The position numbers and the translations under genes were made by a program. Source: Diphasiastrum complanatum (Eukaryota; Streptophyta; Lycopodiopsida; Lycopodiales; Lycopodiaceae). Taken from it: a DNA stretch of 64,000 nt. Below are positions 1,413 through 53,250 of this stretch, one piece after another. The stretch is from positions 35,594 through 99,593 of the forward strand of contig MU831867.1 in NCBI GenBank assembly GCA_029204225.1, given 5' to 3'. How positions within the stretch are numbered: the first letter of the stretch is position 1; each line of letters starts with the position of its first letter. Under the pieces are notes generated by a model. That model had not been told where the DNA came from, ran no database searches, and saw only the letters and a list, made by a program, of their open reading frames with translations.

Positions 1413-2572
1413 TGGTTGGCTTCTATTTACAGTAAGTATTCCATTTTTGGTGATATTTGGATGTTTGATCAAGTTCTAGCATGATTTTGCATTGCTTTGT
1501 TGATCAAATCTTACTAACCTTTGTTTTGTGAGTTGAACTTGTGGATCAAAAGCATATTTCAGGTCTATTGAAGATCAGAGGCTGAAAAGAAACTATTTTG
1601 GATCAGATCATAACACCTAATCATTTGTGATTGTGAGGCTTGTGCATATTCAATACTAACAATGTTCTTTTCAATCCTATTGTTGACAATCTCCATTCTT
1701 GGATGAACACTCTCCTTAAGTGGATGAAACTTCTCCTTAAGTGGATGACAAATGCTCTTTTGAGTGAGTTGTAATTCTCCTAAAGGCTGAGCAAAGCTCC
1801 CATTTGGATGAAAGATCCCCTTTTTTGGGTGAACATATTGTAAGCTCCATTGTGAAGAGCATATTGTAAAGATTGTCATCAATTTTGGCATAATTTTTGG
1901 TGTACTTTGTTGAGCATGTAAGTAACTCTCCTTATGTAATTTGATTGGAGCATTTGCTGGAAGGTGTTAACCATTATGCAAGTGTGTTTTCAGGTTCTTA
2001 ACAGGTTGAGGAACATTCTCATGTGAAGTGATCTTAGATCTACATCTAAACACCAAGATTTGACAAGATAGTGAAGCTAGTCTTGTGATTCACTAAGTGT
2101 GCTCATTCATTCACCTCTAAATCTTGTATTTATCACTTGATGGAGTTTATAAACTTTTAGAAGTGTGGTTTACATGTGGTTTTACAGGTTGAATCAATAT
2201 CTTAGTGTGTTGATCATATGTTGATCAAGTTTGTTCATTACTAGGTAATCTTGGCATCCTAGTTTTGGGTATTTTCTAAGAATGCAAGTAACTCTTCACA
2301 CCATAACTTGATTTGGTCACTTGCTGGAAAGTTTGAGAGCTTAAGCAAGAGTGTGTTCAGGTTGGTTTGATTTTGTAATCCATTCTTAGTGTGTGCAAAG
2401 TGTTGCATGTGTTTCAATCTTCCTTTCTATGCTTGGAAACCATCTAGGTTCAAGATAGAAGTGTTTTAGGGTCCTAAATCTTCATAGATCTCTTTATCTA
2501 TCATTTGTTTAGAGAAAAGTGAGTGCTAAGTGCTTTAGGACAAAACCTAAAAGTTGAAGAAACATTAGAATC
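1413..2572 (+). other. Long untranslated leader of the copia element
   Basis: About 1.16 kb separates the primer site from the gag-pol start codon. It contains a short tandem repeat at about 1700-1763, with TGGATGAA plus CTCCTTAAG recurring every 21 bp. It also contains a diverged direct duplication of about 90 bp (about 1912-2000 and 2277-2365) sharing GTAACTC, TTGCTGGAA and a CAGGTT ending. Open frames here, such as the minus-strand one at 1565-1891, look incidental. Confidence 0.7.
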
Positions 2573-5500
2573 ATGGCTTCCAATGGTGGGATCATGCTAG
2601 AGTCTAGTGAAAGGTTGAGTTCATCAAACTACTCTACTTGGAAAGTGAGGATGGAGTCCTTACTTGAGTTGAATGAACTCATGGACATAGTTGCAGAAAT
2701 TGAAGAGAGACCTCTCACACTTCAAGAGCAACAAAGGTTTGATAAGAAGGCCAAAAGGGCTCTTCATATCATTAAAATGAATGTTACAAATGAACTTCTC
2801 AAGGAAGTTGGAAAGTGTCAAAGTGCAAGTGAGGCATGGAATGCCTTAAAGAAGCTCTTTGAATCAAAGTCCACATCTAGGGTATTGACCCTAAGGAGAC
2901 AAATATTTTCTAGTAGGCAAAGAGAGGGTGAAAGTGCTCATGCATTTATCTTGAGAGTTAAGTCCCTAAGTGATGATTTAGCATGCATTGATGAGAACAT
3001 AAAAGATGGTGAAATAGTCCAAGTTATGTTGAATGGTTTGCTAAATGAACATGCTAACCTTGTGCAAAGTTTTGCCATTCAAAGAGTCTTGCCAAGTGTG
3101 GTTGACTTGCAAGAAATTTTATTGGCTGAAGAACATAGGTTGCAATCAAAGCTTGATGGTGCATCCTTGCAAGGTGGAGGTGAAGAGGCTTTCTTCACAA
3201 AAGGCAAATTCAAGGGCAAAGGTAAAGGCAAAGGGAAATGGTCCAAAGGTGGTAACTTTGATCATGATGATCACTCTTCCTCTTCCTCTTCTACTAAGAA
3301 CAATAAGTCAAAGTTCAAGTGCTTTTATTGTGGGATAAAAGGTCATTTTGCAAATGAATGTTATAAGAAGAAAAGAGAGCAAGGAGAGAGGCAAGGAAAT
3401 CTTACAATAGATGAGGAAGAACATAACACATGTGAATCACTTGTTATGACTTCAAGTTTGTTAGCCAACATAGATGATAATGATCCTTGGTGGATTGATA
3501 GTGGAGCCTCATCTCACATGACAAGACATAAGGAATACTTTACATCCTTATTGTCTTATGAGGGAGAAGGTAACATCATCTACACTGCAAATGATGGTCA
3601 ATGTGACATCAAAGGCATAGGCACTATTCCTATTTCCCTTTCAACAAATAGGAAAGCAAATCTTGAAAATGTTTTGTACATTCCTTCAATCACTAAGAAT
3701 TTGCTTAGTGTAAGTCAAATGATTGACAAAGGACTTGATGTGGAGTTCATTGGAGATGCATGTTTGATAAGTAAATGTGGATCCTTGATTGCTCAAGGTA
3801 GGAGGCATGGTAAACTTTTCAAGCTTGATGCATGTGTGATCTCTAATCATGAAGGATGTATGGCTAGGGAGCAATTGACAAACCAAGAAGTTTGGCACAA
3901 GAGGTTGGGCCATCCCAACTTCAAATCTTTGGAGGTAATGGCAAAGAAAGAGCTTGTTCTTGGTCTCCCTAAAAGTCTTGTTGCAAACAATAGTGTTTGT
4001 GAACATTGTGCCTTGTCCAAATCTCATAGACTTGCTTATTCTAGATCTACTTCTAGATCTAAAGAAGCTTTTCAACTTGTGCATTCTGATATTCATTCTT
4101 CTAGTACAACTAGCAATGGTGGGGCAAAGATGTATGCAACTTTCATTGATGACTTTAGTAGGTATACTTGGATCTATCTTCTTAAAAGTAAGGATGAAGT
4201 GTTTGCTGCATTTGTCAAGTTCAAGAATGAAATGGAAAACCAATTCAATACAAAGATCAAATGCTTAAGATCTGATAATGGAGGGGAATACACCTCAAAT
4301 AGGTTCAAAGACTTTTGTATAGCACATGGGATTAAGAGGGAGATGTCTAGTCCTAGGACTCCACAACAGAATGGAGTGGCCGAGAGGAAGAATAGAACCC
4401 TTTGTGAATGTGCCAAGGCAATGAGACTACATGCTAATCTTGCTAAGTCTTTTTGGGGGGAAGCTTTAGCATGTGCTAACTATCTATGTAATAGATGGAC
4501 AAGTGCTTCCTTGGATGGTAAAACTCCTCATGAGGTTCTTTATGGTAGAAGGCCGAGTGTCAAGCATTGTAGGATCTTTGGATGTACATGTTTTGTCAAT
4601 ATCACACTTGATGATAGAACTAAAGAAGATCCTTCATCAAAGAAGGGTGTGTTTGTTGGCTATAGTGAAGTAAGCAAGGCTTACAAAGTGTACATTCCTT
4701 CTACAAAGAAAGTTGTCATAAGTAGGGATGTCATCTTTCATGAAGAGAATGTTTCCAATGTTGTTGATGTTGATGTTGATGTGCCTACTAATCATCATGA
4801 TGTGCAAGATGTCTTGGATGAAGATGGAGATGCCACTCCAAAGCAAACTTCAAGGAAGACTCAAAGGCAAAGGGCTAAGCCATCAAGGCTAACCTATGAT
4901 GAAAAAGGAAAGCAAGTGGTGGACAACTCTAACTTTGCTTTTCTTACCTCTTTTGATGAACCAACTTGTGTAGGTGAAGCAATTCAAAAGAAGGAATGGA
5001 TCCAAGCCATGGATCATGAGCATCAAGCACTCATCAAAAGCAACACATGGAGGTTGGTAAAGCTTCCAAAGGACAAGAAGGCAATTGGTTGTAAGTGGAT
5101 CTTCAAGATCAAGACAAATCAAGATGGATCAATCAACAAGTACAAGGCAAGGTTGGTGGCAAAGGGGTATGCTCAAGAATATGGTATTGACTATGATGAG
5201 ACCTTTGCACCCGTGGCAAAGATGGTAACTATTCGAATCCTAATCTCTCTTGCAACTCTTTATGATTGGGATATGTGGCAAATGGATGTTACTAATGCCT
5301 TCTTGAATGGTGATCTTGAAGAAGATATTTACATGGAGCAACCCGAGGGCTATGTTTCACATGATGAGCCTAATCATGTGTGCTATCTCCAAAAGAGTTT
5401 GTATGGGCTAAAGCAAGCACCAAGGAGTTGGTATGCTAAGCTCAATTCCTTCTTACTTTCTCAAAACTTTGTTATGAGTGAGTATGATCATTCTCTCTAC

Positions 5501-6526
5501 TTTAGATTGAATGAAAATGATATCACTTTACTTTTGATCTATGTTGATGACATTATCTTAAGTGGTGGTAACAATCTAGATATAGATGAAATCAAGATGG
5601 CACTCAAAAGAGAGTTTGAAATTCAAGATCTTGGTAAACTTCATTATATCTTAGGAATAGAGATTATTAGAACTTCTAAATCTACATTCATATGTCAAGA
5701 AAAGTATGTTAACTCTATTCTAAAAAGGTTTCATATGGAAGATTGTAAAGTTGTTTCTACTCCTATGGAATCAAATGTAAAGCTAACTACAAGAAGTAAT
5801 GAAAGATCCTTCAAGGACATTACTCTCTATAGAAAGCTAATAGGATCTCTTATATGGTTAACCATCACAAGACCTGATCTAAGCTTTGTGGTTGGTAAAC
5901 TAAGTCAATTTATGCAAGATCCTAGTGAGGCTCATTGGAAGCTAGGAAAGAGAGTACTTAGATACATCTCGGGATCTAGAGATTTTGGCATCTTGTATGG
6001 AGGTACTACACCTAACCTTTGTGGATTTTCAGATTCAGATTTTGCAGGTGATCAAATGGATAGGAAGTCAACAAGTGCCTTTGCAATCTATCTTGGAGAT
6101 GGAGTGGTCTCATGGCTATCAAAGAAGCAACCAACTATCTCTCTATCTTCCACCGAAGCCGAGTACAAGGCATTAACAACATGCACCAAGGAGATTCTTT
6201 GGATCAAGAGGATGTTATTGGATCTTCACTTGTTGGAACCAGAGAAGACTCCAATCATACTTTGTGATAACCTTTCAGCCCAAAGCTTGGCAAGCAATCC
6301 TGTTTTTCATGCAAGGAGCAAGCACATTGAGATTGCTCACCATTTTGTAATAGATCAAGTCATTGCCAAAGAGGTGGAGCTTCAACATGTCTCTTCAAAG
6401 GAGTGTGTGGCTGATATCTTCACCAAACCATTGGGAAAGGACCTATATTTAATGCATAGATCTAATCTTGGAATGTGCTCAAAGACTATGTTGAAACTAG
6501 CATCCAATGTTGAAGAGGGAGTGTGA
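2573..6526 (+). CDS. Copia gag-pol polyprotein, apparently intact
   Basis: One 1,317-codon frame encodes all the enzymes needed for copia retrotransposition. In order: gag (about 1-230), a CCHC zinc knuckle (C250, C253, H258, C263), an aspartic protease with DSGAS (D309), an integrase with HHCC-type residues (H442, H447, C476, C479) and a DD35E core (D506, D568, E604), a reverse transcriptase with YVDD (D992, D993), and RNase H (D1154, E1195, D1232). No stop or frameshift breaks it. The start codon opens a gag-like N-terminus. The last codons overlap the first five bases of the 3' LTR. All catalytic residues looked for are present, so autonomy is plausible, but activity is inferred. Confidence 0.95.
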   Translation: MASNGGIMLESSERLSSSNYSTWKVRMESLLELNELMDIVAEIEERPLTLQEQQRFDKKAKRALHIIKMNVTNELLKEVGKCQSASEAWNALKKLFESKSTSRVLTLRRQIFSSRQREGESAHAFILRVKSLSDDLACIDENIKDGEIVQVMLNGLLNEHANLVQSFAIQRVLPSVVDLQEILLAEEHRLQSKLDGASLQGGGEEAFFTKGKFKGKGKGKGKWSKGGNFDHDDHSSSSSSTKNNKSKFKCFYCGIKGHFANECYKKKREQGERQGNLTIDEEEHNTCESLVMTSSLLANIDDNDPWWIDSGASSHMTRHKEYFTSLLSYEGEGNIIYTANDGQCDIKGIGTIPISLSTNRKANLENVLYIPSITKNLLSVSQMIDKGLDVEFIGDACLISKCGSLIAQGRRHGKLFKLDACVISNHEGCMAREQLTNQEVWHKRLGHPNFKSLEVMAKKELVLGLPKSLVANNSVCEHCALSKSHRLAYSRSTSRSKEAFQLVHSDIHSSSTTSNGGAKMYATFIDDFSRYTWIYLLKSKDEVFAAFVKFKNEMENQFNTKIKCLRSDNGGEYTSNRFKDFCIAHGIKREMSSPRTPQQNGVAERKNRTLCECAKAMRLHANLAKSFWGEALACANYLCNRWTSASLDGKTPHEVLYGRRPSVKHCRIFGCTCFVNITLDDRTKEDPSSKKGVFVGYSEVSKAYKVYIPSTKKVVISRDVIFHEENVSNVVDVDVDVPTNHHDVQDVLDEDGDATPKQTSRKTQRQRAKPSRLTYDEKGKQVVDNSNFAFLTSFDEPTCVGEAIQKKEWIQAMDHEHQALIKSNTWRLVKLPKDKKAIGCKWIFKIKTNQDGSINKYKARLVAKGYAQEYGIDYDETFAPVAKMVTIRILISLATLYDWDMWQMDVTNAFLNGDLEEDIYMEQPEGYVSHDEPNHVCYLQKSLYGLKQAPRSWYAKLNSFLLSQNFVMSEYDHSLYFRLNENDITLLLIYVDDIILSGGNNLDIDEIKMALKREFEIQDLGKLHYILGIEIIRTSKSTFICQEKYVNSILKRFHMEDCKVVSTPMESNVKLTTRSNERSFKDITLYRKLIGSLIWLTITRPDLSFVVGKLSQFMQDPSEAHWKLGKRVLRYISGSRDFGILYGGTTPNLCGFSDSDFAGDQMDRKSTSAFAIYLGDGVVSWLSKKQPTISLSSTEAEYKALTTCTKEILWIKRMLLDLHLLEPEKTPIILCDNLSAQSLASNPVFHARSKHIEIAHHFVIDQVIAKEVELQHVSSKECVADIFTKPLGKDLYLMHRSNLGMCSKTMLKLASNVEEGV
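6511..6521 (+). promoter_or_regulatory. Polypurine tract
   Basis: TGAAGAGGGAG immediately precedes the 3' LTR, inside the last gag-pol codons. The position and purine content fit the plus-strand primer of an LTR retrotransposon. Confidence 0.75.
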
Positions 6527-7176: not shown

Positions 7177-9570
7177 CCCGACACAAGAAAATGACCATTA
7201 ATTCACCAAAAATTGACAATCTCCAAGTATTGGCATCAAGTAGCTCAACACTTGAGAACTTGATCATGGATGAGTGATATAATGAACCTCCAATAGCTTC
7301 ATTTACATTAGCAAAACCAGCCAAGAATTCTAGTACAACTCCAACAATAAGATATTGCAAGACAATGTAGCTAGTTTGTCCATATCTTGACAATTTGCGG
7401 ACATCCACATAAAATAACTCAACCATGAGATAGAACAAGTAAAGTAAATTTGAACAACACTTCCTTGCTGATCCTTTGACATTACTTGAGTTTAAAGACT
7501 CTTGCAAAAATAGATCCATAACATCTTTGCCAAATAACCTTCCTTTGATGCTCTTGACTAGCTCCAAATCGCCACCTTTCCTTTTGTGTTGTTGAAGCCC
7601 TTTGAGACCAACCTGTTGATCTTCCTCTTGACCATCAAAGTCATTGAAAAAACTTTGTTTTTCAGATCCATTACTTGACTTTCCAGCATGAAAACCATGA
7701 GAACTAATATCCACTTGCATAACATCATCTGCACGAGAAGATTCTCCAAAACATGTGAGTAAAGCAAAGTGAGTCGCTTCCACTTGCTTACCTTTCTCTT
7801 GATCATCAAAGATATGAATATCTTCAGACATGAACCTCTAGAAATACTCCCTCTCAAACATATGATCTAGATCCAACAAGATCTCATCAATGCTTGATCT
7901 CAAATTTCCACAAAGGTTAGTGAAAACAATGTCACCAATGTCACCATCATAAATCAAAAGATACATTCCAGACTTTCCATCCAACATGAAGTAGAGTAGG
8001 TGAAGATGAGTATCAAACCTAATAAATCCAGCATTCTTGAGTCCACAAGAAACCTCAATAGGATCACCAATGAGATCTTCCTTTCCTTGAAGAAATGGCC
8101 TCTCGATTTGTTCCATGTAGTCTTCTCCAACCAACGTTTTGCCATCTCGGTCATGAGTGATCAAATCATAATCATAGAATCCTTTGAGTTGATGAAGAGA
8201 TGTGAGATCCATGCCTTGGATCTTCTCAAGAAACAATCTTTCATTGCTCTTTCCTTCATAAGACTCCATCTTAATGATTGCATCATAAGAAGTAGAAACC
8301 TCAAAAACATTAGAAGCCATGAAAAAAATGATTAGTACCTTCAACATAAGGATGATTGAAGTACTCTCTTTTTTCAAACAGGAACTTCTACTCAATGTTT
8401 TAGCTAATGACTCATATGAAAATGATTCTTCCTCACTATCATTCACAATGATATCATTCAAAATACCTCCTACTTTGAACTCTTTACATACTTCTCTTCT
8501 TCTTAACTTGTGAGTATCTCCCTCACCAAGTCTCATGATAGAACCATTTGATCTACTCTTTTTATGAAGACATGTGATTCCACTTGCTTGAAAAATGACT
8601 TTTTGGAATCGTAACAAAATAATGTAGAAGAACCACCTCCTTCATGCATGCACCTAGCAACATCTTTTTCCATATGATCAAAGAAATCATTAGCAACAAC
8701 CTTTTCCAAGGAAGAACCTTCACCTCCATTGATGAAGTTAGCTCTTTCCTTACCTTTTGGATGCTTGCACTTGCCATGAAGAACCATTGAAACACCATCA
8801 TTATCCTCAAGACTAGCCAAGTTAGCACAAAGATGAACATCTCCAAGAAGCATATTAGATCTTGAACTAGATCTAGCATAAGGAAGCTTGTTAGACTTTG
8901 CATAAGATCCACCAATCTTATTGATGCTAAAAGGGAACTTCGAAAAGTTGAGTCCAATCTCCTTTTCCATTCCATATTTTTTGTTAGCCATAACAAAAGC
9001 ATCAAGCTTGAAAAGTCTGCCTTGTCTATTGCCCCTAGCAACCAAGATTTCTTCCTTTGTAATGAAACAAGCATTGCCACCAAACTTTACCATGTATCCT
9101 TTCTCTATCATTTGACCAACACTTAACAATTCTTTGAAAATGAAAGAATGTAAAGAACACCATCAAGTCTTGTTTTTCTATTAGTAGAGAGACAAATAGG
9201 AATTGAACCAATACCTTCAATCACACACTCACCACCATTGGCCATGTGAATTGCTTTCTTGGCTCCATCATAAGCGATCAAAGAAATAAAGAACTCTTTG
9301 TGACTAGTCATGTGTGAACTAGCTCCACTGTCAATCCACCATGAATCTTTGTCACCTCCACTTGATATCGGACTTGAAGAACACATCAAAAGAGAATCAC
9401 CACCACCTAGATCCTCATCATTAGTAGTAAAGTTGATTTGCTTGCTACCTTCGTCTCTTTGCGTCTTCAAACATTCATTAGCAAAATGCCTTTTGATTCC
9501 ACAATAAAAGCATTTTAACTTAGACTTATCTTTCTTTTTGCCAAAAGAGGAAGTCTCCCTCTCACCACGA
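7177..9570 (-). pseudogene. Older copia-derived region with an unrecognised coding insert
   Basis: On the minus strand, from right to left, are: a CCHC zinc knuckle (9471-9512), a protease segment with WWIDSGASSHMT (inside 9123-9470), the copia linker with LSVGQMIEKG and LFKLDAF (inside 8533-9129), then two long frames in one phase separated by a single TAG (7838-8617 and 7172-7831). The last two show only scattered copia likeness (EKGKQV, NTWRL). The integrase DDE core and reverse transcriptase expected there are absent. This could be a defective copia whose enzyme region was replaced by captured sequence, or a heavily scrambled element. Frame changes between segments mean no single protein is made as it stands. 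Confidence 0.6.
7838..8617 (-). CDS. Unrecognised 259-codon frame inside the copia-derived region
   Basis: I do not recognise this protein. The frame is rich in acidic and leucine residues, with stretches such as SYDAIIKMESYEGKSNERL and DLITHDRDGKTLVG. It contains a hydrophobic segment near residues 90-103. It lies where copia integrase would be expected but shows no DDE motif. A single TAG separates it from the next frame in the same phase (7172-7831). Together they give about 480 codons, or about 507 if the reading is carried across the young copia insertion. The presence of long frames argues for recent coding function or recent capture, but homology is untested. Confidence 0.35.
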   Translation of the reverse strand: MLRFQKVIFQASGITCLHKKSRSNGSIMRLGEGDTHKLRRREVCKEFKVGGILNDIIVNDSEEESFSYESLAKTLSRSSCLKKESTSIILMLKVLIIFFMASNVFEVSTSYDAIIKMESYEGKSNERLFLEKIQGMDLTSLHQLKGFYDYDLITHDRDGKTLVGEDYMEQIERPFLQGKEDLIGDPIEVSCGLKNAGFIRFDTHLHLLYFMLDGKSGMYLLIYDGDIGDIVFTNLCGNLRSSIDEILLDLDHMFEREYF

Positions 9571-27198: not shown

Positions 27199-27351
27199 GT
27201 CCTTATTAGTTTTCTCACTCCATTGCTTGTAGGGCTATGGGTATGATTTGATATGATGTATCATGTCTCTTAGCTATTCTTGTAGGGATTAGTCTATGTT
27301 GTCTCATATCTGATCTTTATGCTTCATTGATACTAATGATATCAATGAAGC
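26480..27351 (+). mobile_element. Probable 3' end of an LTR retrotransposon, with LTR
   Basis: A segment starting TGTGGAAAATG at 26921 is preceded by a purine-rich GCTTGGGG tract typical of a polypurine site. It contains a TAAATATATAGG that could be a TATA box and a long CT array, and ends near a CA at about 27351. The upstream 400 bp include an open frame at 26518-26856 without known motifs. Boundaries are approximate and no partner LTR was found. Confidence 0.4.
27132..27195. repeat. (CT)n microsatellite
   Basis: Sixty-four bp of uninterrupted CT inside the probable LTR. Confidence 0.97.
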
Positions 27352-27360
27352 CACTTACGG

Positions 27361-30300
27361 TTGCAGCATCATGTCCGATGGCTGGACTGATGTCAGGAGG
27401 AGGCCGATTCTCAACATACTGGTCTCCAGCTGCATGGGCACACAGTTTTTGAGGGCAGTGGATTGCAGCAGGGGGGGGGGGGGGGGAGTCATATCTGCAG
27501 AGTTCATGTTTGATGTCATCAGGTCTTCCATCCTAGCCATAGGCCCACAGCATGTCGTCACGGTGGTGACGGACAATGCCACGAATTGCATTCAGATGGG
27601 TGTACTGCTAGAGGCCGAGTTCCCTCATATTGTTCATACCCCCTGTGTAGCGCAGGACATAGACCTTCTAATGGGGGTCATTGGAGCACTTCCCTGGGTT
27701 AGAGCCATCGTCCGGGAGGCCCTCTTTCTGGTGACTTTTGTCACCAGAAAGAGGCGTGTTCTTGCCATGTTCCGGGTGTTCAGCCATCTGGACCTCCGTA
27801 AGCCAGCCCCCACACGCTTTGCATTCGACTTGGTGGTCATCGACCGTTTGATCATGTGCAGGGCCCAGCTTCTACAGATGGTTGCCAGTGATCTTTGAGG
27901 TGCCAATACATTTCCGCGCACTGAGGATGGGGAGCACTTTTCTTCCACGGTGAGGGGAGACCAGTTCTGGAGGGATGCACAGACATTGTCAGGACTGCTT
28001 CGACCCCTCTACATTGTGCTCCGCATGGCTGACAGCGTGGGGTCGACACTTGGACTAGTGTATGAGCTCATGGACCGGATTGGACAGTTCCTGCAGATGC
28101 CCATCTTCCAGCCAGAGAGGTAAGCGGTACAGTGTTGTAATTGACCTTTATCTTTTCAGTACTTGCTAGTTTGTTTTTCTGTCAATGTTAAGTTTTTTCG
28201 TAATGCCCTAAACCACATGCCCCTCACCTGCAGGATGACAGAGCTGAAGTTCATATGGGAGACGCAGTGGAACTACTTCCACAGGAGTATCCACAACGTT
28301 GCACACATGATGCATCCCCTCTTCCTCTCTCCGACACAGATCGCAGCCAGGGAGCTCGAGGCCGATTGGCTTCAGTACATTCACAGGGTGGGTCCACACA
28401 TAGGTTTGGATCCTATCAGGCTCATGGAGGAGCTCGCTGCATTTCGTTTCGGCATGGGCACGTTCGGCCACTCGGCTGCTCAGGATCCAGAGAGGAGGCA
28501 GCTTCCCATTACCTGGTGGACCATGTTCGGGATCACCTATCCATCCATACAGCGTCTTGCACTGCGTGTCCTTTCTCAGGTATGCATCTCATTTCATCCT
28601 CCATTGTTGTGTTTCGTTGACGTTCCACCCGTGCACATGTGCTGAAGCATTGCATTGCACGTATCACAGGACTGCGCTGCCTCCGTGTGTGAGCGTAATT
28701 GGAGCACATGGGCACTCATTCACACGAGGAGAAGAAACCGGTTGTCAGTGAGTCAGTTGGAGCGGTTAGTGTTCTGTAGCACCAATGCACGTCTCGCCAG
28801 GAGACTTCCGACCATTACGAGCGCATTGCAGGTGATAAGCTATTCTCCCATAGTAGTTTGGTTGACTCCTGGTATGTTGGTTTCATTTCTTGATAAAGTT
28901 GTCTCTCTGACATGCAAATTTTAAACCTTGCAAACGAAGATATCTGATTTGGAGCGCAAGGTTGACTTGCCTACGGACAACACCCATCCCATGCCTGCAG
29001 ATGACCTGGGCACACAGTTGATGGCAGAGAGAGAGGGGGAGCTTGCCGAGATGAGAGAGAGAGAGAGCTTGGGCTTGAGCACAGAGAGCCCCCATTGTAT
29101 GAGGCAGATGAGCCAGTGTCAGAGGATGAGCCCATTCGGGTTGTGTTTGCCAGATCAGAGAGGGATGAGGTAGATGATACAGGTGCAGGGCACACGCCAC
29201 GGGCAGGGGTCACAGGTGCATCACGTGGCAGAGGTTGGACACATGGCACAGGTTATACCGGCAGACAGGCAGGGCACACGGGGGGGCCAGTGGCATACCT
29301 ACCTATGTCGACATGATGGAGGAGGCTCTTGATAGAGGGCAGAGTGGTTTAGATGCCGGTCCTGCAGATGTTTGGATGCGTGCAGCACAGAGTCATGGCC
29401 GTTACTACGACAACACACCAGAGGAGGCACCAGATGACTTTGATTGCACAGATTGGGAGGCCATGCAGGGTCTACAGGGTGCACATGATGAGGCACGGGA
29501 TGAGGCTCGGGTTGATTCAGGGGTTGGTGCACAGAATGATTCAGAGGTTGGTGCACAGGATGATTTAGAGGCTGGTGCACAGGATGAGTCCCAGAGCCCA
29601 GAGCATTTGTATTCGGATGCCCAACTGGACGACTTGGTTGCCACATTGGATTCAGAGGCCCAGCAGATGCCGAGTGTCAGGGCGCCCCCATCATCTCTTG
29701 CTAGCATGCCATACACAGAGTCCCAGCCAGAGTAGCCACATGAGGTGCCTACAGTTTCTCCAGCTCCTCAAAGGGTGTATGTGCGTCGCACAGCTCCTCC
29801 AGTGCCATCGATGCCATTTAGGCCTGCAGCCCCTCCATCGCCGTCCACTTCTGCAGCACCAGGTCTCCATGGCAGGCCACCATCTGTGCCCAGGTTTTCT
29901 CTTGCAGCGCCCACATCCACAGTGGCTCCTCCAGTGGTAGCACCCACATCACATCCTCCTTTGGCAGCACCCAGGATGTACCAGTACCAGCCACCACAGC
30001 GCCCCTTTCAGTACATATCGCCACTGTACTCGCCTCCTGCACAGCCAGTTCCTCCACCTGCAGCAGCCCCACGGGCACACACTCCACGAGCTCATCCTCC
30101 TCGCTCAGGTGCATAGGGAGTTCCCTCTTTTGCTTCCCTATCCCAGTCGGCCTCAGCTTGGGCCCAGCCTAGCCAGCCAGGTGATTTGCATGGGGGTGAC
30201 GAGGCATTGACAGCTCCTCTTGTCCGCAAGAGACCAGGAAGGCCCAAGGGTGCACCGAACAAGAAAGGCAAGGCACAGAAACTGCCAGGGAGGAGAGGAC

Positions 30301-30545
30301 GACCACGCAGGGCTCCAGGTACAGGTAGAGGTGCAGTATCACAGCCAGTTGGAGCAGGTGTTGTTGGTTTGGCCTGCTTGGGGGCTGATGCGGAGGCTGA
30401 TTGGGAGGATGAGGATGACGAGTCTCCCCCCTCGGATACACAGCCCATGCCAGTTCCAGACAGGCAGAGATATCGGCTACGAGAGTCAGCTCGGGGCCGT
30501 GAGTTGTCTCCAGAGCATTCGTCTGAGTCAGAGCCAGAGCATTGA
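27361..30545 (+). pseudogene. Family 1 hAT transposase, near complete, with inactivating changes
   Basis: Likely exons are 27361-28119, 28234-28579, 28670-28831 and 28940-30545, all with GT-AG borders. Exon 1 is DUF659: MSDGWTDVRRRPIL, VVTDNATNC and a C-x3-D-L region whose usual histidine reads glutamine (CVAQDIDLL). Exons 2-3 carry the hAT C-terminal region (CERNWSTWALIH, LERLVF). The long last exon encodes an acidic, then proline-rich, then basic tail with AT-hook-like PGRPKG and RRGRPRRAP, ending LSPEHSSESEPEH. Breaks are a TGA at 27896, frameshifts in a GA run near 29060 and a G run near 29283, a TAG near 29735 and a TAG after RSGA. A G14 run lies at about 27470-27486. Confidence 0.8.
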
Positions 30546-31072: not shown

Positions 31073-31437
31073 TCACTGATCCTCCACCGACTCCTCGCCC
31101 TCGTCTGGTGCATTGTTTTGTCGCTCTTGCTCTGCCTCCCGGTTAGCCCGAGCTGCCTCCTGGTTAGCTCGACGTCTGGCCGCCCTTTCCCTGACCATGA
31201 TGAGCTGCCGTTGTGTGAAATTCATTCCGATCTGCTCATCCAGATCCAGCTCGACAGCGGGGACAGGATCCACAGCGGGGGCGGGTGGCTCCGGTTCCGG
31301 ATTTCTCTGCCGAGTCTGTCGCAGCATCTCTCGGATATCTGCCTCTTGCTTCCGATGTCTCTCGTTGTGCCTTCGGATATCTTCCCAAGCTTCCTCCTGG
31401 CTTCGCCCTCGGCCTTCGATGGTATGCGCTCTGCCAT
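31073..31437 (-). pseudogene. Family 1 accessory gene, copy a, frameshifted
   Basis: Minus-strand relative of the intact 32786-33151 gene. It begins MAERIPSKAEGEARRKL and regains the conserved frame at EMLRQTRQRNPEP through LDLDEQIGMNF to GEESVEDQ. Against copy b, one base is missing near codon 17-18 (AAGCTTGGGAAG versus AAGCTCGAGGAAG), which breaks it. It converges on the transposase gene that ends at 30545. Confidence 0.7.
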
Positions 31438-31669: not shown

Positions 31670-31865
31670 TCCATCCATGTGCCTCTGTACCTGCCCCCGT
31701 GTGATGCTCCCCCCCTGTGTTGGTCTCCCATTGGGCCCGTGGTCTGCTCACCCACAATGCCCATGTGCCTCTGTACTTGCCCCCATGTGATGCTACCCCC
31801 CTGTGTTGGTCTCCCATTGGCCCCTCGGTCTGCTCACCCGCATTGCCCATGTGCCACAGCACAAG
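31670..31865. repeat. 85-bp tandem repeats near the end of family 1 copy a
   Basis: GCCTCTGTACNTGCCCC recurs at 31681 and 31766, a period of 85 bp. Shared words are GTGTTGGTCTCCCATTGG and GTCTGCTCACCC. The same array occurs at the equivalent place in copies b and d. Confidence 0.85.
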
Positions 31866-32195: not shown

Positions 32196-32535
32196 GGGGC
32201 ACTGTGGGAGAGCAGACCTTGTGGTCAATGGGAGTGTAGCATGTGGGGGGGCAGCAAATCCGGACAGGTATACCGTCACATGGGCACTGTGGGGGAGTAG
32301 ACCACGAACCCAATCAGAGTGCAGCATGTGGGGGAGCAGTAAATCCGGACAGGTACACCGTCACATGGGCACTGTGGCGGAGCAGACCACGGACCCAATG
32401 AGAGTGCAGCATGTGGGGGAGCAACAAATCCGAACAGGTACACCGTCACATGGGCACTGTGGAGGAGCAGACCACGGACCCAATCGGAGTGCAGCATGTG
32501 GGGGAGCAATACATGGGGCAGGTACAGTAGCACAT
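32196..32535. repeat. 85-bp tandem array, family 1 copy b, about four units
   Basis: TGGGCACTGTGG begins units at 32281, 32366 and 32451, exactly 85 bp apart, with a partial unit before and a degenerate one after. Each unit contains GCAGCATGTGGGGGAGCA, AAATCCGGACAGGTA and CACCGTCACA. A subterminal location suggests transposase-binding or promoter repeats, which is inference. Confidence 0.9.
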
Positions 32536-32594
32536 GGGATCATCAACAAGTGCAAATGGGGAAACAGACTGTGGGGTTAAATAGGCACTCACGA

Positions 32595-32785
32595 GGCAGT
32601 GAGAGAGCCAGTGAGAGGCTGTGAGAGAGAGCCAGTGACAGGTATCATCAAGAGGCATTATGAGAGGCATTGTGAGAGGCTGTGTCACAGACCCAGTGAA
32701 AGGCTGTGAGAGGGAGGCTGTGAGAGAGCCAGTGAGAGGCTGTGAGAGGCTGTGAGAGCCAGTTCGAGAAACAGGGTGTCGTGAG
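32595..32785 (+). repeat. GTGAGAGGCT-type minisatellite before the accessory gene
   Basis: Short units around GTGAGAGGCT and GAGCCAGT repeat irregularly up to the start codon at 32786. Copy d has the complementary version (CTCACAATGCCTCTCAC) before its own damaged gene, so the repeat is a family trait of the 5' leader. Confidence 0.75.
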
Positions 32786-33151
32786 ATGGCGGAGCGCATA
32801 CCACCGAGGCCTGAGGGCGAAGCCAGGAGGAAGCTCGAGGAAGATGTACGAAGGCACAACGAAAGGCATCGGAAGCAAGAGGCAGACATTGCAGAGATGC
32901 TGCGACAGGCTCGGCAGAGAAATCCAGAGCCAGAGCACCCAGCTCCCCCTGTGCCCCCCGCCCCCGCTGTCGAGCTGGATTTGGATGAGCAGATCGGAAT
33001 GAACTTCACATGGCGGCAGCTCATCATGGTCAAGGAAAGGGCTGCCCGCCGTCGTGCTAACCAGGAGGCAGCTCGGGCTAACCGGGAGGCAGAGCGAGAG
33101 AGACAGAACAATGCACCTGACGAGGGCGAGGAGTCAGTGGAGGATCCATAG
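32786..33151 (+). CDS. Family 1 accessory protein, intact, 121 residues
   Basis: The only unbroken copy of the second gene of family 1. The protein starts MAERIPPRPEGEARRKLEED, is rich in Arg, Glu and Ala, and has two helix-like charged segments (about 12-48 and 80-110) around a Pro/Ala linker and a conserved core LDLDEQIGMNFTWRQLIMV. No zinc finger, transposase motif, signal peptide or membrane segment is seen. The charged helices suggest a coiled coil. It points toward and ends about 500 bp from the transposase end. I do not recognise the family. Three copies in three elements show that it travels with this hAT family. Confidence 0.75.
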   Translation: MAERIPPRPEGEARRKLEEDVRRHNERHRKQEADIAEMLRQARQRNPEPEHPAPPVPPAPAVELDLDEQIGMNFTWRQLIMVKERAARRRANQEAARANREAERERQNNAPDEGEESVEDP

Positions 33152-33650: not shown

Positions 33651-34278
33651 TCAATGCTCTGGCTCTGACTCAGATGAATGCTCCGGAGACAACTCAGGGC
33701 CCCGAGCTGACTCTCGCAACTGATATCTATGCCTGTCTGGAACTGGCATGGGCTGTGTATCCGAGGGGGCAGACTCGTCATCCTCATCCTCCCAATCTGC
33801 CTCCGCATCAGCCCCCAAGCAGGCTAAACCAACAACACCTGCTGCAGCTGGTTGTGATACTGCACCTCTACCAGCAACTGGAGCCCTGCGAGGTCGTCCT
33901 CTCTTCCCTGGCTGTTTCCGTGCCCTGGCTTTCTTGTTCGGTGCATCCTTGGGCCTTCCTGGCCTCTTGCGGACGAGGGGAACCGTCAATGCCTCATCAC
34001 CCCCATGCAGATCACCTAGCTGGCTAGGTTGGGCCCAAGCTGTGGCCGGCTGGGATAGAAAAGTCAAAGATGGGTGTCCCTGTGCAGCTGATAGTGGAGG
34101 ATAGGTCCGTGGAGTGTGTGCCCGTGGGCCTGCTGCTGGTGGAGGAACTAGCTGTGGAGGGGCTGTCCCTGCAGAAGACAAGTACAGCGGCGATAAGTAC
34201 CGAAAGGGGCGCTGCGGTGGCCGGTACTGGTACATCCTGGGTGCTGCCAAAGGAGGAGCCGGTGCCATGGGTGTTGTC
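33651..34278 (-). pseudogene. Family 1 transposase C-terminal tail, copy b (distal part)
   Basis: The minus-strand frame equals the end of copy a: proline-rich MYQYRPPQRPF, then RKRPGRPKDAPNKK and GKRGRPRRAP (AT-hook-like), then an acidic stretch and LSPEHSSESEPEH at the stop (33651). Unlike copy a it has no stop in this region. It is cut off from the proximal tail by the insert at 34279-34668. Confidence 0.8.
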
Positions 34279-34668
34279 TGTTGAAATAAATGCCTATTTT
34301 GCCCCTTAAGGCTTGTATACTTGTAACTTGTAAGTTGTGCATAAGACATGGGGGTAAAACATTTATGTACATAGTACACCCCACTTGTGCTAATTAGGCA
34401 AGTAAATCAAGTAGGTTAAGGACCCATGTGGGTTCTAGAGCTAGAATTAGCAAGACACCACCTCTATACATAACATGCTATATGTAGCCCAAACTTTGGA
34501 GGGGTTTCCACGCCCTACTACACTTTGAATATTCATTCATGTTGTGTGAGCTTTGGAGTCCTCTCTCTCTTGCTTTTGTGTTCTACTCCATAGCTGGTTT
34601 TCTGAAGCTTTCATAGTGTGCTTACTATGCTGTTATGATACTCCATAGCTAGGCCTTGGAATTTGACA
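34279..34668. mobile_element. Solo-LTR-like insertion inside the transposase tail of copy b
   Basis: A 390-bp segment starting TGTTGAAATAAA and ending TTTGACA interrupts sequence that is continuous in copy a. Flanking bases are TTGTC and CTGTC, a 4-of-5 match to a target duplication. TG to CA ends and size fit a solo LTR. The parent family is unknown. Confidence 0.6.
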
Positions 34669-40206: not shown

Positions 40207-42507
40207 CAGACATGAGGGTCCGGGCCAAAATGGCCGCGTCCGACCCCCAGACGCAGGGTCGGACGCGAGAGTAGGCAAAGGGTGGAAGAGGGAGAGTGTG
40301 GGAGAGCATAGAGAGAGAGAGAGAGGGAGAGAGAGAGAGAGAGAGAGATGGTGTTTGTGTGTGTGTGTGTGTGTGAGAAAATTGTGTGTGTGAAAATTGT
40401 GTGTGTGTGTGAAAATTGTGTGTTGATTTGTGTGCATTCAGTTGTGTGTGTGTGGTGATCTGTGTGTGAGAGAGAGAGAGGAAGAGACAGAGAGTGTGAG
40501 GAACGTAAAGAGAGAGGATTTGTGTGCACAGTGTGTGTGTGTGAGTTTAGGATTTAGGTTCAAGGGTGCTTGGGTTTGGGGTTTAGGGCTTAGGGCGAGC
40601 CGTCCACAGATGCCACGGACTCTATTTCTACTGGTGCACCCACTGCCACCGACCCTGCCACTGGTACACCCAACCCAGCGCCACCGCCCCCATCGTCGCA
40701 TCTGCACCCGCCACTGCCGCTGCATCCGCACCCGCACCCGCCCCTGCCACCGCCACCGCCACCGCCTCCGCCTCCGCCAGTACTCCCCATGGATCCACGG
40801 CCTCCACTGCTGCACCTACGCGTATGCCATCACCGTCAGATCTGCACGGCCCGTCCACATCCTCCGCTTCCGCACCTGCACCTATGCCACCACCTCCACA
40901 TCTGCATCGTCCATCCGCATCCTCCCAGCCATCCACATCCCGAGGCACCAGACAGATGTCCATGCCGGGATCTTTCAGAGAGGGGCAGCACAGAGAGGCC
41001 ACCAGGAACATAGCACAGATGTTCTATGAACTGAACCTCCCCTTTATCATGGCATCATCCCGCATCTTTCGAGAGGCTATCTCGAAAGTTGCAGTTTGCG
41101 AGCCCGGCTACACACCACCCACAGCCGACGCACTACGAGGCCCCTTGCTCCAGGACCGGGTTGCATCAGTCAAAGAGAGATTGGCCGCACTGCATGAGGC
41201 TTGGGATAGATACGGCTGTTCCATCATGGCTGATGAATGGACTGATCGTCGCAGACGTCTACTCATCAACGTGATTGTTTCTAGTTGTTACGGTTCCATG
41301 TTCTTGTGCAACATCGACGCCTCCGAGGCAGGGAGAGTGCATTCGGCCGAGTACATTTATGGCATCATTCGCGCGGCGATAGAGGAGGTCGGACCACAGC
41401 CCGTTGTCCAGGTATAATATTCTTTCATTAGTTGCTTGTTCATTTGCTGCTGGATGTTGATACAATAGTTCTGCGTAGTTTTCGATTGATTGCAATGTGT
41501 TTCCGAGCTGTGAACTGATCGTGTGAATGTATCGCGAAAGGTTGTGACGGACAATGTGTCCAACTGCTGCGGTATGGGGGAGCTTCATATTGCAGACTAC
41601 CCCTCCATCGTGTGGACGCCATGCGCCGCACACTCACTGGACCTCCTCCTGGATTCCATCGGGCGCCTGCCTTGGGTCAGTGACATTCTCACAAGGGCAC
41701 TTGCGGTCGTGAACTTCGTCACACGCAAGCGCCGCATGACGGCACTTTTCCGCACATTCAGCAGGTAAGCTGCCACTTACTTTTTGGCTCGTCAAGATGC
41801 TCTTTTTTTTGGGCTCGTTTCATGTGTGCCTCTCATTCCGTTTGTCAATGCAGGCTCGACTTGAAGAAGCCCGCTCGCACCCGCTTCGCCTACCAATTCA
41901 TCATGCTTGAGCGGCTACACAAGCTCAAGGGTGAATTGCGGCACATGGCCACTTCGGCAGAGTTCACCGCCATGGACCTGTCCACGACCCCAGACGACTT
42001 GGCCTTCCACTACATCTTATTCATGAAGCCTTTCTGGGTGAATATGCAGCAGCTAATGGACATCATGCGCCCCATCTACTCTGTTCTGAGGCTTGTTGAT
42101 CGCGAGGGGTGCACGATGGGCCTCATCTATGAGTTCATGGACCGCATAGGCGAGTCTCTCCAGCGTTCCGAGCTGGACCCTGCCAGGTATAACTTTTTTC
42201 CGTCTCACCATCCTTACTTCCATTTTGCACTCTGTTTCGTCTTGTTGCCGCAACACGATGGTATGTAACTGTTGCCTCCACGTGGTTTGGTCCACAAGTT
42301 GGAGCCTATCAGGCGCTTGTGGCAGCGGCGATGGGAGAAGTTTCACCGGCCCATTCATAGTGTGGCCCACATACTGCATCCGCTTTTTCAGAGCGAGAGG
42401 GGGTACGACGATGCAGAATTGCGTTCGGACTGGTTCGCATACATCCGCCTCCTCAGCAGCGACACTAGGTTCCGCAGCAGGCTCGAAGTGCAGAGGCTCG
42501 GTTACAG
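40207..42507 (+). mobile_element. Family 2 hAT transposon, left copy (BED exon deleted, 3' truncated)
   Basis: Starts with the B-type terminus CAGACATGAGGGTCCGGGCC at 40207 and a GCGTCCG-rich end. GA and GT microsatellites and a TTTAGGG-like leader follow, then the transposase from the Pro/Ala linker onward. Compared with the right copy, the leader joins the linker directly at GGCGAGCCGTCCACAGATGCC, so the zinc-finger exon is missing. It ends at the splice donor at 42508, where the inverted right copy begins. Confidence 0.7.
40600..42507 (+). CDS. Family 2 hAT transposase, catalytic exons, no stops seen
   Basis: Exons read as about 40600-41411, 41541-41764, 41854-42186 and 42299-42507, each with GT-AG borders. 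Residues include AVCEPGYTPPTADALRG, YGCSIMADEWTDRRRRLLIN, VVTDNVSNCC (catalytic aspartate), TPCAAHSLDLLLDSIG (C-x2-H of hAT), FVTRKRRMTALFRTFSR, LDLKKPARTRFA and LIYEFMDRIGESL. This is the DUF659 plus hAT RNase-H-like fold. The N-terminal BED finger and the C-terminal dimerisation exon are absent, so the copy cannot be autonomous. The lack of stops in four exons suggests it is young. Confidence 0.75.
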
Positions 42508-51352: not shown

Positions 51353-51898
51353 ATGGTGCAATCCGACCTTTCCGGTCTATGGGACGAGGTAGACATTGTC
51401 AGGCGGGTTGCCGACAAGGCCAACAAGACCGGTCAGAAGATCGTGCGCTGCCGATACTGTCTCGTCGAGTTTGCTGCATCCCTCACTCGCCTTAAAGGCC
51501 ATCTGCTCGGTGCACGCGCCAAAAATGGTGCCACCTTGAATGCTGCCCCTTGTGGCAGCATGATCGTCCCCGACAGGCAGCGACTACTGGACACCTACGG
51601 GCCGCGGCTCGTGGCAGGGGAGAACACCATTTCGGAGGGCATTCTCCGATTTTGCACCGCTCCTTATGTGGCTGACCCAGAGTTGTTGCCTGCTTGGCTA
51701 CGAGCTGGAGCAGGTGTTGCTGGTTTGGCTTGCTTGGGGGCTGATGCGGAGGCAGATTGGGATGATGTTAGTGACGAGTCCTCTTCTGATACACAGCCCA
51801 TGCCAGCTCCAGACAGGCACAGATATCGGCTGCGAGAGTCAGCCCGGGGCCCTGAGTTGTCTCCAGAGCATTCGTCTGAGTCAGAGCCAGAGCATTGA
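51353..51898 (+). CDS. BED-finger protein fused to the transposase tail (deletion product)
   Basis: A 182-codon frame begins MVQSDLSGLWDEVDIVRR and carries the whole BED finger (CRYCLVEFAASLTRLKGHLL) up to VADPELLPAWL. It then passes in frame into the distal tail (RAGAGVAGLACLGADAEAD, acidic, ending LSPEHSSESEPEH). The joint lies near 51698. DUF659 and hAT domains and the AT-hook-like segment are gone. No stop interrupts it, although the open frame also extends 339 bases upstream of this start. I chose 51353 because copy c has the same start and leader. Keeping DNA binding without catalysis is the form of known transposition repressors such as P-element KP protein. Repression here is inference. 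Confidence 0.75.
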   Translation: MVQSDLSGLWDEVDIVRRVADKANKTGQKIVRCRYCLVEFAASLTRLKGHLLGARAKNGATLNAAPCGSMIVPDRQRLLDTYGPRLVAGENTISEGILRFCTAPYVADPELLPAWLRAGAGVAGLACLGADAEADWDDVSDESSSDTQPMPAPDRHRYRLRESARGPELSPEHSSESEPEH

Positions 51899-52382: not shown

Positions 52383-52736
52383 CTACGCTAAACATTCCAA
52401 TGGATCCTCCACTGACTCCTCACCCTCGTCGGGAGCATTGTTATGTCGCTCTCGCTCTGCCTCCCGGTTACCCCGAGCTGCCTCCTGGCCAGCCCGACGT
52501 CTGGCCGCCCTTTCCCTGACCATGATGAGCTGCCGTCGTGTGAAGTTCATTCCGATCTGCTCATCCAAATCCAGCTCGACAGCGGGAGCAGGGGCCACAG
52601 CGGGGGCGGGGATTTGCAGCTCTGGGTGTCTCTCCCGAGTTTGTCGCAGCATCTTTGCAATGTCTGCCTCTTGCTTCCGATGCCTTTCGTTGTGCCTTCG
52701 CCCTCAGGCCTTGGTGGTATGCGCTCTGCCATCTCA
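52383..52736 (-). pseudogene. Family 1 accessory gene, copy d, deleted and frameshifted
   Basis: The minus strand begins MAERIPPRPEGEG and lacks a segment of about 28 bp present in copy b (GCCAGGAGGAAG through GATGTAC), which breaks the frame. The conserved part MLRQTRERHPELQ through LDLDEQIGMNFTRRQLIMV to GEESVEDP is still readable in another frame. It is convergent with the fused gene, as in the other copies. Confidence 0.7.
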
Positions 52737-52974: not shown

Positions 52975-53250
52975 TACCACATGCTGCACTCCGATTGGGT
53001 CCGTGGTCTGCTCCCCCACAGTGCCCATGTGACGGTGTACCTGTCCGGATTTGTCCCATGTGCCTCTGTACCTGCCCCCATGTGATGCTCCCCCCCTGTG
53101 TTGGTCTCCCATTGGACCCATGGTCTGCTCACCCACAGTGCCCATGTGCTTCTATACTTGCCCCCATGTGATCCTACCCCCCTGTGTTGATCTCCCATTG
53201 GCCCCTCGGTCTGCTCACCTGCAGTGCCCATGTGCCACTGCACCAGTCCC
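52975..53250. repeat. 85-bp repeats of family 1 copy d
   Basis: GTGTTGGTCTCCCATTGG-type and GTCTGCTC-type words recur with an 85-bp period. The order matches the arrays of copies a and b. Confidence 0.8.

Follow-up and report, generated by a model that had tools for sequence, protein, structure and literature searches.

A hAT element in the genome of Diphasiastrum complanatum contains two convergent genes, a transposase gene and a small second gene of ∼121 codons (named ORF2 here), whose ends lie ∼0.5 kb apart. In the main clade, ORF2 was kept beside the transposase through many copies, which is a long joint inheritance, and selection seems to have preserved it as the element spread. The usual picture of a hAT element is that of a transposon with one protein. 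We consider it probable that this plant hAT has two genes, the second of which encodes a helper; the existence of the gene is well supported, and the mechanism is one that we infer.

The window, a stretch of 64,000 nucleotides on contig MU831867.1, contains ORF2 three times, as a sequence-only reading of this DNA had reported: an A-type copy on the forward strand (32786..33151), a B-type copy on the reverse strand (31073..31437), and a C-type copy, also on the reverse strand, which had been placed at 52383-52736 and whose coordinates we correct to 52398..52732. One copy is intact, as had been said: the A-type frame is open over 121 codons and ends in a stop, and the other two are broken, the B-type copy by a 1-nt deletion that causes a frameshift near codon 18 and the C-type copy by a 31-nt deletion, with loss of the stop. 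The arrangement given in that reading was also recovered. All three copies converge on a family 1 transposase tail, with 494, 524, and 496 bp between the end of ORF2 and the transposase DNA, and each has an 85- to 86-bp tandem array upstream, placing the gene between tail and array. The array upstream of the A-type copy is of A type (85 bp, 3.7 units; 32197..32508), a B-type array (86 bp, 2.1 units) lies at 31675..31855, and a B-like array (86 bp, 2.1 units; 53055..53236) lies upstream of the C-type copy. A TATA-like TTAAATA (32577..32583, forward strand), a candidate promoter site, stands ∼205 bp before the start of the A-type ORF2 in a stretch that is common to all three copies with small differences, and between this site and the gene are GTGAGAGGC-rich short repeats (32600..32770, forward strand) that may form the 5′ leader. 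ORF2 would be transcribed from the array side, from a TATA promoter beside the subterminal array.

The B- and A-type copies, at 31437 and 32786, differ in type and stand head to head, so we take this pair to belong to two adjacent elements. A single element with two ORF2 copies was considered and rejected, paired copies being read as neighboring elements at (AT)n. At several loci two elements flank one (AT)n tract (e.g., L028, 1298/1357; labels of this style denote loci fetched elsewhere in the same genome). Such placement may account for paired ORF2 copies, and the finding of family 1 ends in (AT)n, with two elements per tract, suggests a preference for TA repeats. A near-identical twin of the window pair (30–34 kb) is present on another large contig (L009, C2:64560500-64570200), with identities of 99.5% and 100% in ORF2.

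The transposase is of the DUF659/hAT type. In the copy that converges on the B-type ORF2, the DUF659 part (27314..27898, forward strand) matches Pfam family PF04937 with an E value of 5.9e-31 (1.4e-40 in L077) and is followed on the same strand by a weak match to the C-terminal hAT dimerisation domain PF05699 (28145..28645; E 0.011, 15.9 bits as compared to a curated cut-off of 21.4) and by the C-terminal tail (30186..30545). No MULE transposase family was among the Pfam matches, DUF659 being found instead. The A-type ORF2 faces a C-terminal transposase reading frame on the reverse strand (33651..34406, ending in ...SPEHSSESEPEH), and the C-type ORF2 faces an internally deleted transposase on the forward strand (51353..51898), in which the N-terminal part is followed by the tail. 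That ORF2 might be an exon of the transposase was ruled out by its position on the opposite strand.

A complete element was found in L011 (oriented coordinates), where it runs for ∼6.8 kb from CATAG at 1182 to CTATG at 7951 with (AT)n on both sides. In the terminal inverted repeats (CATAG...CTATG) only 5 bp match exactly, followed by differing GGTACC-rich modules, and the (AT)n in which the ends lie would mask an 8-bp target site duplication. From left to right, the element consists of a GGTACC-rich end, the 85-bp array, the TATA-like site and the GTGAGAGGC-rich leader (these two placed from the window copies), ORF2, a spacer of ∼0.5 kb, and the transposase, which is on the opposite strand and extends to near the right end. 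L024 contains, on its reverse strand at oriented positions 1198-2429, a non-autonomous derivative of 1.23 kb that lies in (AT)n at both ends. It retains the left end together with ORF2 but no transposase, and the final codons of ORF2 pass into the right end at GGATCC.

DNA searches covered the assembly of 1.74 Gb (5176 contigs), and in each search the best 40 candidates were scored, out of 2358 for A-type ORF2, 2283 for B-type ORF2, and 2190 for the transposase tail. Both ORF2 searches gave 40 matches among the best 40 scored, and one ORF2 motif, searched as a degenerate pattern, matched the genome 8 times as compared to 0 for a control pattern, so the occurrence of ORF2 is not due to chance. 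A pattern with LDLDEQIGM altered at another codon had 0 genome matches, and a QLIMV... pattern matched 54 places, one of which (C15:22199185) falls in L058. Judged from first-look search candidates, which are not the same as confirmed copies, the copy number of ORF2 and transposase looks high.

Transposase DNA was present within 1 kb of ORF2, in convergent orientation, in 33 of 39 rows, each row being an ORF2 copy with at least 900 bp of DNA after it; the rows come mostly from the best matches to the window A copy and count near-identical duplicates (e.g., L005/L012 and L015/L017/L020). In six of these 33 (L010 twice, and L012, L005, L013, and L026 once each), the nearest transposase DNA is a part other than the tail, so the elements concerned are internally deleted or rearranged. 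The six rows without nearby transposase are one A-type copy in L010, which is 1.7 kb from transposase DNA with another ORF2 in between, L024, L049, and the E-type copies L051, L052, and L055. Viewed from the transposase tails, ORF2 was at the expected place in 13 of 20 and was convergent in all 13; these 20 are the first 25 tail matches minus five in which ORF2 had been seen before (the window, L009, L011, L014, and C5:76405536, which is beside an ORF2 match), and the count is 18 of 25 with those included. Among the seven tails lacking ORF2 at that place, in L089 the final ORF2 codons adjoin upstream DNA, L080 and L083 have ORF2 leader repeats there, the near-identical L086 and L087 run into another element end, and the near-identical L094 and L097 have rearranged transposase DNA. 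The sequence-only reading had proposed checking whether ORF2 copies lie beside DUF659/hAT genes; they do in the main clade, and the association is weaker in an intron-bearing lineage (type E).

The 48 distinct copies, typed by protein motifs as A (19), B (23), or C (6), have an open frame in 31 cases (A 11/19, B 17/23, C 3/6); columns that are insertions with respect to the window copy were excluded from this count. The A and B majority sequences are separated by 12.5 nonsynonymous and 18.5 synonymous differences (6/7/18 by codon position), which gives a dN/dS of 0.20 at kappa 2 (0.17–0.23 over kappa 1–4); the corresponding values at kappa 2 are 0.59 for A-C, from 11 differences, and 0.26 for B-C, from 22. 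The window A and B copies are 87.1% identical in the coding region, as compared to 72.8% with 98 gap positions in the spacer behind it. On a tree of 73 distinct sequences, the ratio of nonsynonymous to synonymous changes (N:S) on branches whose descendants are not all of type E was 47:69 on internal branches and 139:78 at tips (p = 4.7e-5), and the 52 A-D sequences alone gave 49:59 and 166:96 (p = 0.0017), with the counts made by parsimony on related copies and the p-values therefore rough. Single copies decay afterwards, C-to-T and G-to-A together making up 154 of the 231 changes at main-clade tips. For the transposase, N:S was 67:78 internally and 118:69 at tips in the N-terminal block (p = 0.0026; 13 sequences) and 17:22 and 44:37 in the DUF659 block (10 sequences), and the internal ratio did not differ between ORF2 and transposase (p = 0.38). 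In the main clade, ORF2 was held by purifying selection to a degree that these counts do not distinguish from that on the transposase. The substitution test suggested in the sequence-only reading is thus positive for the main clade; it is negative for the intron-bearing lineage.

Other frames served as controls for these counts. The internal N:S was 83:21 and 83:18 in the two other sense frames and 75:31, 50:52, and 86:17 in the antisense frames; the second of these, which shares wobble positions with ORF2, gave 50:52 on internal branches and 178:93 at tips (p = 0.004), and the counts alone do not cleanly set ORF2 apart from it. A chance frame was rejected on the A-B dN/dS of ∼0.20, the difference between internal and tip N:S, and the other-frame controls.

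The diverged relatives bear on which strand is coding. A pattern with one wobble position changed led to L049 (type D, intact, 115 codons) and to L051, L052, and L055 (type E), and, with L052 as query, the best 40 candidates scored contained 68 matches, at identities down to 74%, of which 20 were fetched. The E gene starts with ATGGCAGAGCGCATACCAGTTGAC, continues with GTGAGCG, and resumes after TTTGTGTGCAG with AGGGAGAAGCT; its protein is MAERIPVD joined across a 107-bp GT-AG intron in phase 0 to REKLLEDVRRHNERH, with the exons in frame. Of 22 E copies, 20 have the donor motif and 21 the acceptor, and the occurrence of such an intron in diverged relatives supports a real gene on the ORF2 strand. 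In types A-D the E intron is absent and the C-terminal helix contains an in-frame duplication of 21 bp; the Pro-rich linker is longer in types A-C. The E copies L052, L055, L057, and L058 group with A-D on a midpoint-rooted tree, a placement that favors a putative intron loss in A-D.

It could be argued that the constraint acts on a frame of the opposite strand, or on DNA or RNA rather than on protein: an antisense open frame spans the region, antisense frame 2 has a lowered internal ratio (above), and the E intron is more conserved than exon 2. We find this highly improbable: the sense ratio is the better one and has fewer internal stop changes (49:59 with 1 as compared to 50:52 with 4), the ATG is shared, the sense-strand intron joins two sense exons in phase, and A and B stop at the same codon using different letters.

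The E lineage itself gave no purifying signal (N:S 70:37 on internal branches and 168:83 at tips, p = 0.81). With C-to-T and G-to-A set aside, exon 2 in loci L057-L076 and L052 accumulated 0.265 changes per site on internal branches (34/43/30 by codon position) as compared to 0.075 for the intron, and the rates were closer at tips (0.324 and 0.234). This fast change of exon 2 may reflect diversifying selection, relaxed constraint, or block recombination. Because the HPELQIP and KFEAEF blocks recur in A-D and in E, block recombination between subfamilies is likely, and we therefore do not claim positive selection in E.

In 20 of the 22 E copies the transposase tail was absent within the ∼1 kb read downstream. 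Six loci (L059, L060, L062, L066, L076, and L052) have in common a downstream region other than the hAT tail, which in L060 and L052 includes a decayed opposite-strand frame convergent on ORF2; Pfam gave no match for either of two frames of the L060 downstream region, and the next 5 kb of L060 contain the shared region followed by a further, oppositely oriented hAT copy. Some of the E copies may therefore be broken or located within another kind of element. L074 and L075, which are among the most diverged E copies, do have a convergent transposase tail (E 4.8e-43 and 4.8e-38), and a search with L075 listed 40 matches of 83–100% identity; in 10 of these relatives, convergent transposase DNA was found in 5 (600-bp stretches) and the tail itself in 3 by protein comparison.

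The many E copies without a hAT tail in the DNA read, several of them sharing a different downstream region, would also fit a captured host gene fragment that is carried along as Pack-type cargo and does nothing for the element, and the L024 derivative is likewise ORF2 without transposase. Such cargo would not be expected to show main-clade selection indistinguishable from that on the transposase, nor a place and orientation that are constant in diverged subfamilies, including L074, L075, and half of the 10 L075 relatives, and no host parent gene was seen among the best 40 candidates per search of this genome. We thus consider cargo an improbable explanation.

The ORF2 product ranges from 105 to 121 aa and is predicted to be small, highly charged, and mostly helical, with a Pro-rich hinge and an acidic tail. 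A model built from 21 sequences places helices at 10-45, 66-73, and 76-108 around the hinge (mean pLDDT 76.6, pTM 0.29), in agreement with the earlier description of the protein as charged and probably helical, and VE-D-DEQIGMNFT-RQLIMV is a well-conserved stretch. The protein had also been called unfamiliar, and it is: Pfam gave no family above cut-off (window copy, L049, and L011), a PDB sequence search gave no match better than E 0.06, and a PDB fold search with the model gave no match.

As an accessory factor, the ORF2 product would aid the element by one of two routes, either by acting together with the transposase at the ends of the element or by maintaining the activity of its ends and promoters. 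The second route corresponds to VANC-like anti-silencing, in which binding of ORF2 to its own family's 85-bp subterminal arrays would keep these free of methylation and both genes active. VANC proteins are described as binding noncoding tandem repeats, which vary from one related element to another (as presented in PMC10398659 and PMC5735166). Arrays with a period of at least 60 bp were found upstream of ORF2 in 14 of the 16 stretches tested (the two exceptions are stretches of L022 and L023), their units being 79–91% alike within an array and 74% between A and B, and ORF2 has variable blocks and the 21-bp duplication, all of which would suit such binding. However, array type and ORF2 type are not locked, as the C-type ORF2 of the window has a B-like array (94%) and the C-type ORF2 of L013 has an array 89% like A; the divergence between A and B arrays is about that of the spacer (72.8%) and not greater, and no DNA-binding domain was found in ORF2 by Pfam and PDB searches. 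Anti-silencing of this kind is in our view rather unlikely. Because array and ORF2 types are mixed and the arrays diverge no faster than the spacer, a helper acting in the manner of MURB is somewhat ahead of it.

A more far-reaching proposal is that a plant hAT lineage evolved its own trans-acting gene for anti-silencing or for helping transposition, independently of MuDR, VANDAL, and algal hATv, with ORF2 acting through the subterminal arrays and diversifying in blocks between families. The many changes at codon positions 1 and 2 beside a conserved intron in E would fit such diversification, and we put the proposal forward tentatively, as possible and on balance doubtful.

Among known systems, Ac, Tam3, and Tol2 are known as one-gene hAT elements with a transposase only, mudrA and mudrB converge on each other in MuDR, VANDALs are MULEs, and the second protein of PIF/Harbinger has a Myb-like domain, which a Pfam search did not find in ORF2. 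By gene arrangement, the present element is likened to MuDR of maize, in that a transposase gene is accompanied by a second gene, convergent here; MuDR contains mudrA, for the transposase, and mudrB, whose product is given in accounts of the element as of unknown function and present only in Zea, and it belongs to another superfamily, whereas the transposase here is DUF659/hAT. VANDAL with VANC, of Arabidopsis, is similar by its description, with an accessory gene and noncoding tandem repeats that differ between families (PMC10398659, PMC5735166), but in the present element no MULE family matched the transposase, and array and ORF2 types are mixed. PIF elements, in which a transposase and a second ORF are reported as usual (PMC2528002), share the two-gene plan and are of another superfamily. 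One-gene elements such as Ace of Tisochrysis lutea, with a single ORF of 713 aa matching PF04937 and PF05699 according to its description (PMC10138859), are of the same superfamily and are without a second gene. Also cited in this comparison are PMC3276141, PMC2874221, PMC3878927, and PMC9659126.

Two-ORF hAT elements are already known in algae. Shanks of the haptophyte alga T. lutea is described as 6,768 bp long with two ORFs (793 and 580 aa), for which that description gives no Pfam or HHpred prediction, and as placed by Repbase in the small hATv group (PMC10138859). It resembles the present element, by that account, in its hAT classification, similar length, and two ORFs; its ORFs are of ∼793 and 580 aa without a Pfam match, whereas here ORF2 has 105-121 aa and the transposase matches DUF659. 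The sequence-only reading had called the second gene undescribed, which holds for this gene within the open-access literature searched and does not hold for two-ORF hAT elements as such, Shanks being in print (PMC10138859). In plants, no two-ORF hAT element was found in these open-access searches.

A second gene kept for so long would mean that certain plant hAT lineages require a helper or benefit from one, as do MuDR and VANDAL, and it adds to the instances that raise the question of why DNA transposons with two genes have arisen more than once. If the reading of an independent helper is true, it would represent a separate origin of two-gene autonomy in the hAT superfamily. ORF2 offers a small new protein for the study of transposition or anti-silencing, and the two-ORF Shanks/hATv elements of algae are worth comparing with it. 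The window also contains a second hAT family (40791-42268), whose DUF659 is ∼42% identical to that of family 1 and at which tblastn with ORF2 gave only weak low-complexity matches (best E 0.08), and a Copia-like polyprotein frame that stays open over 1322 codons (2558-6526).
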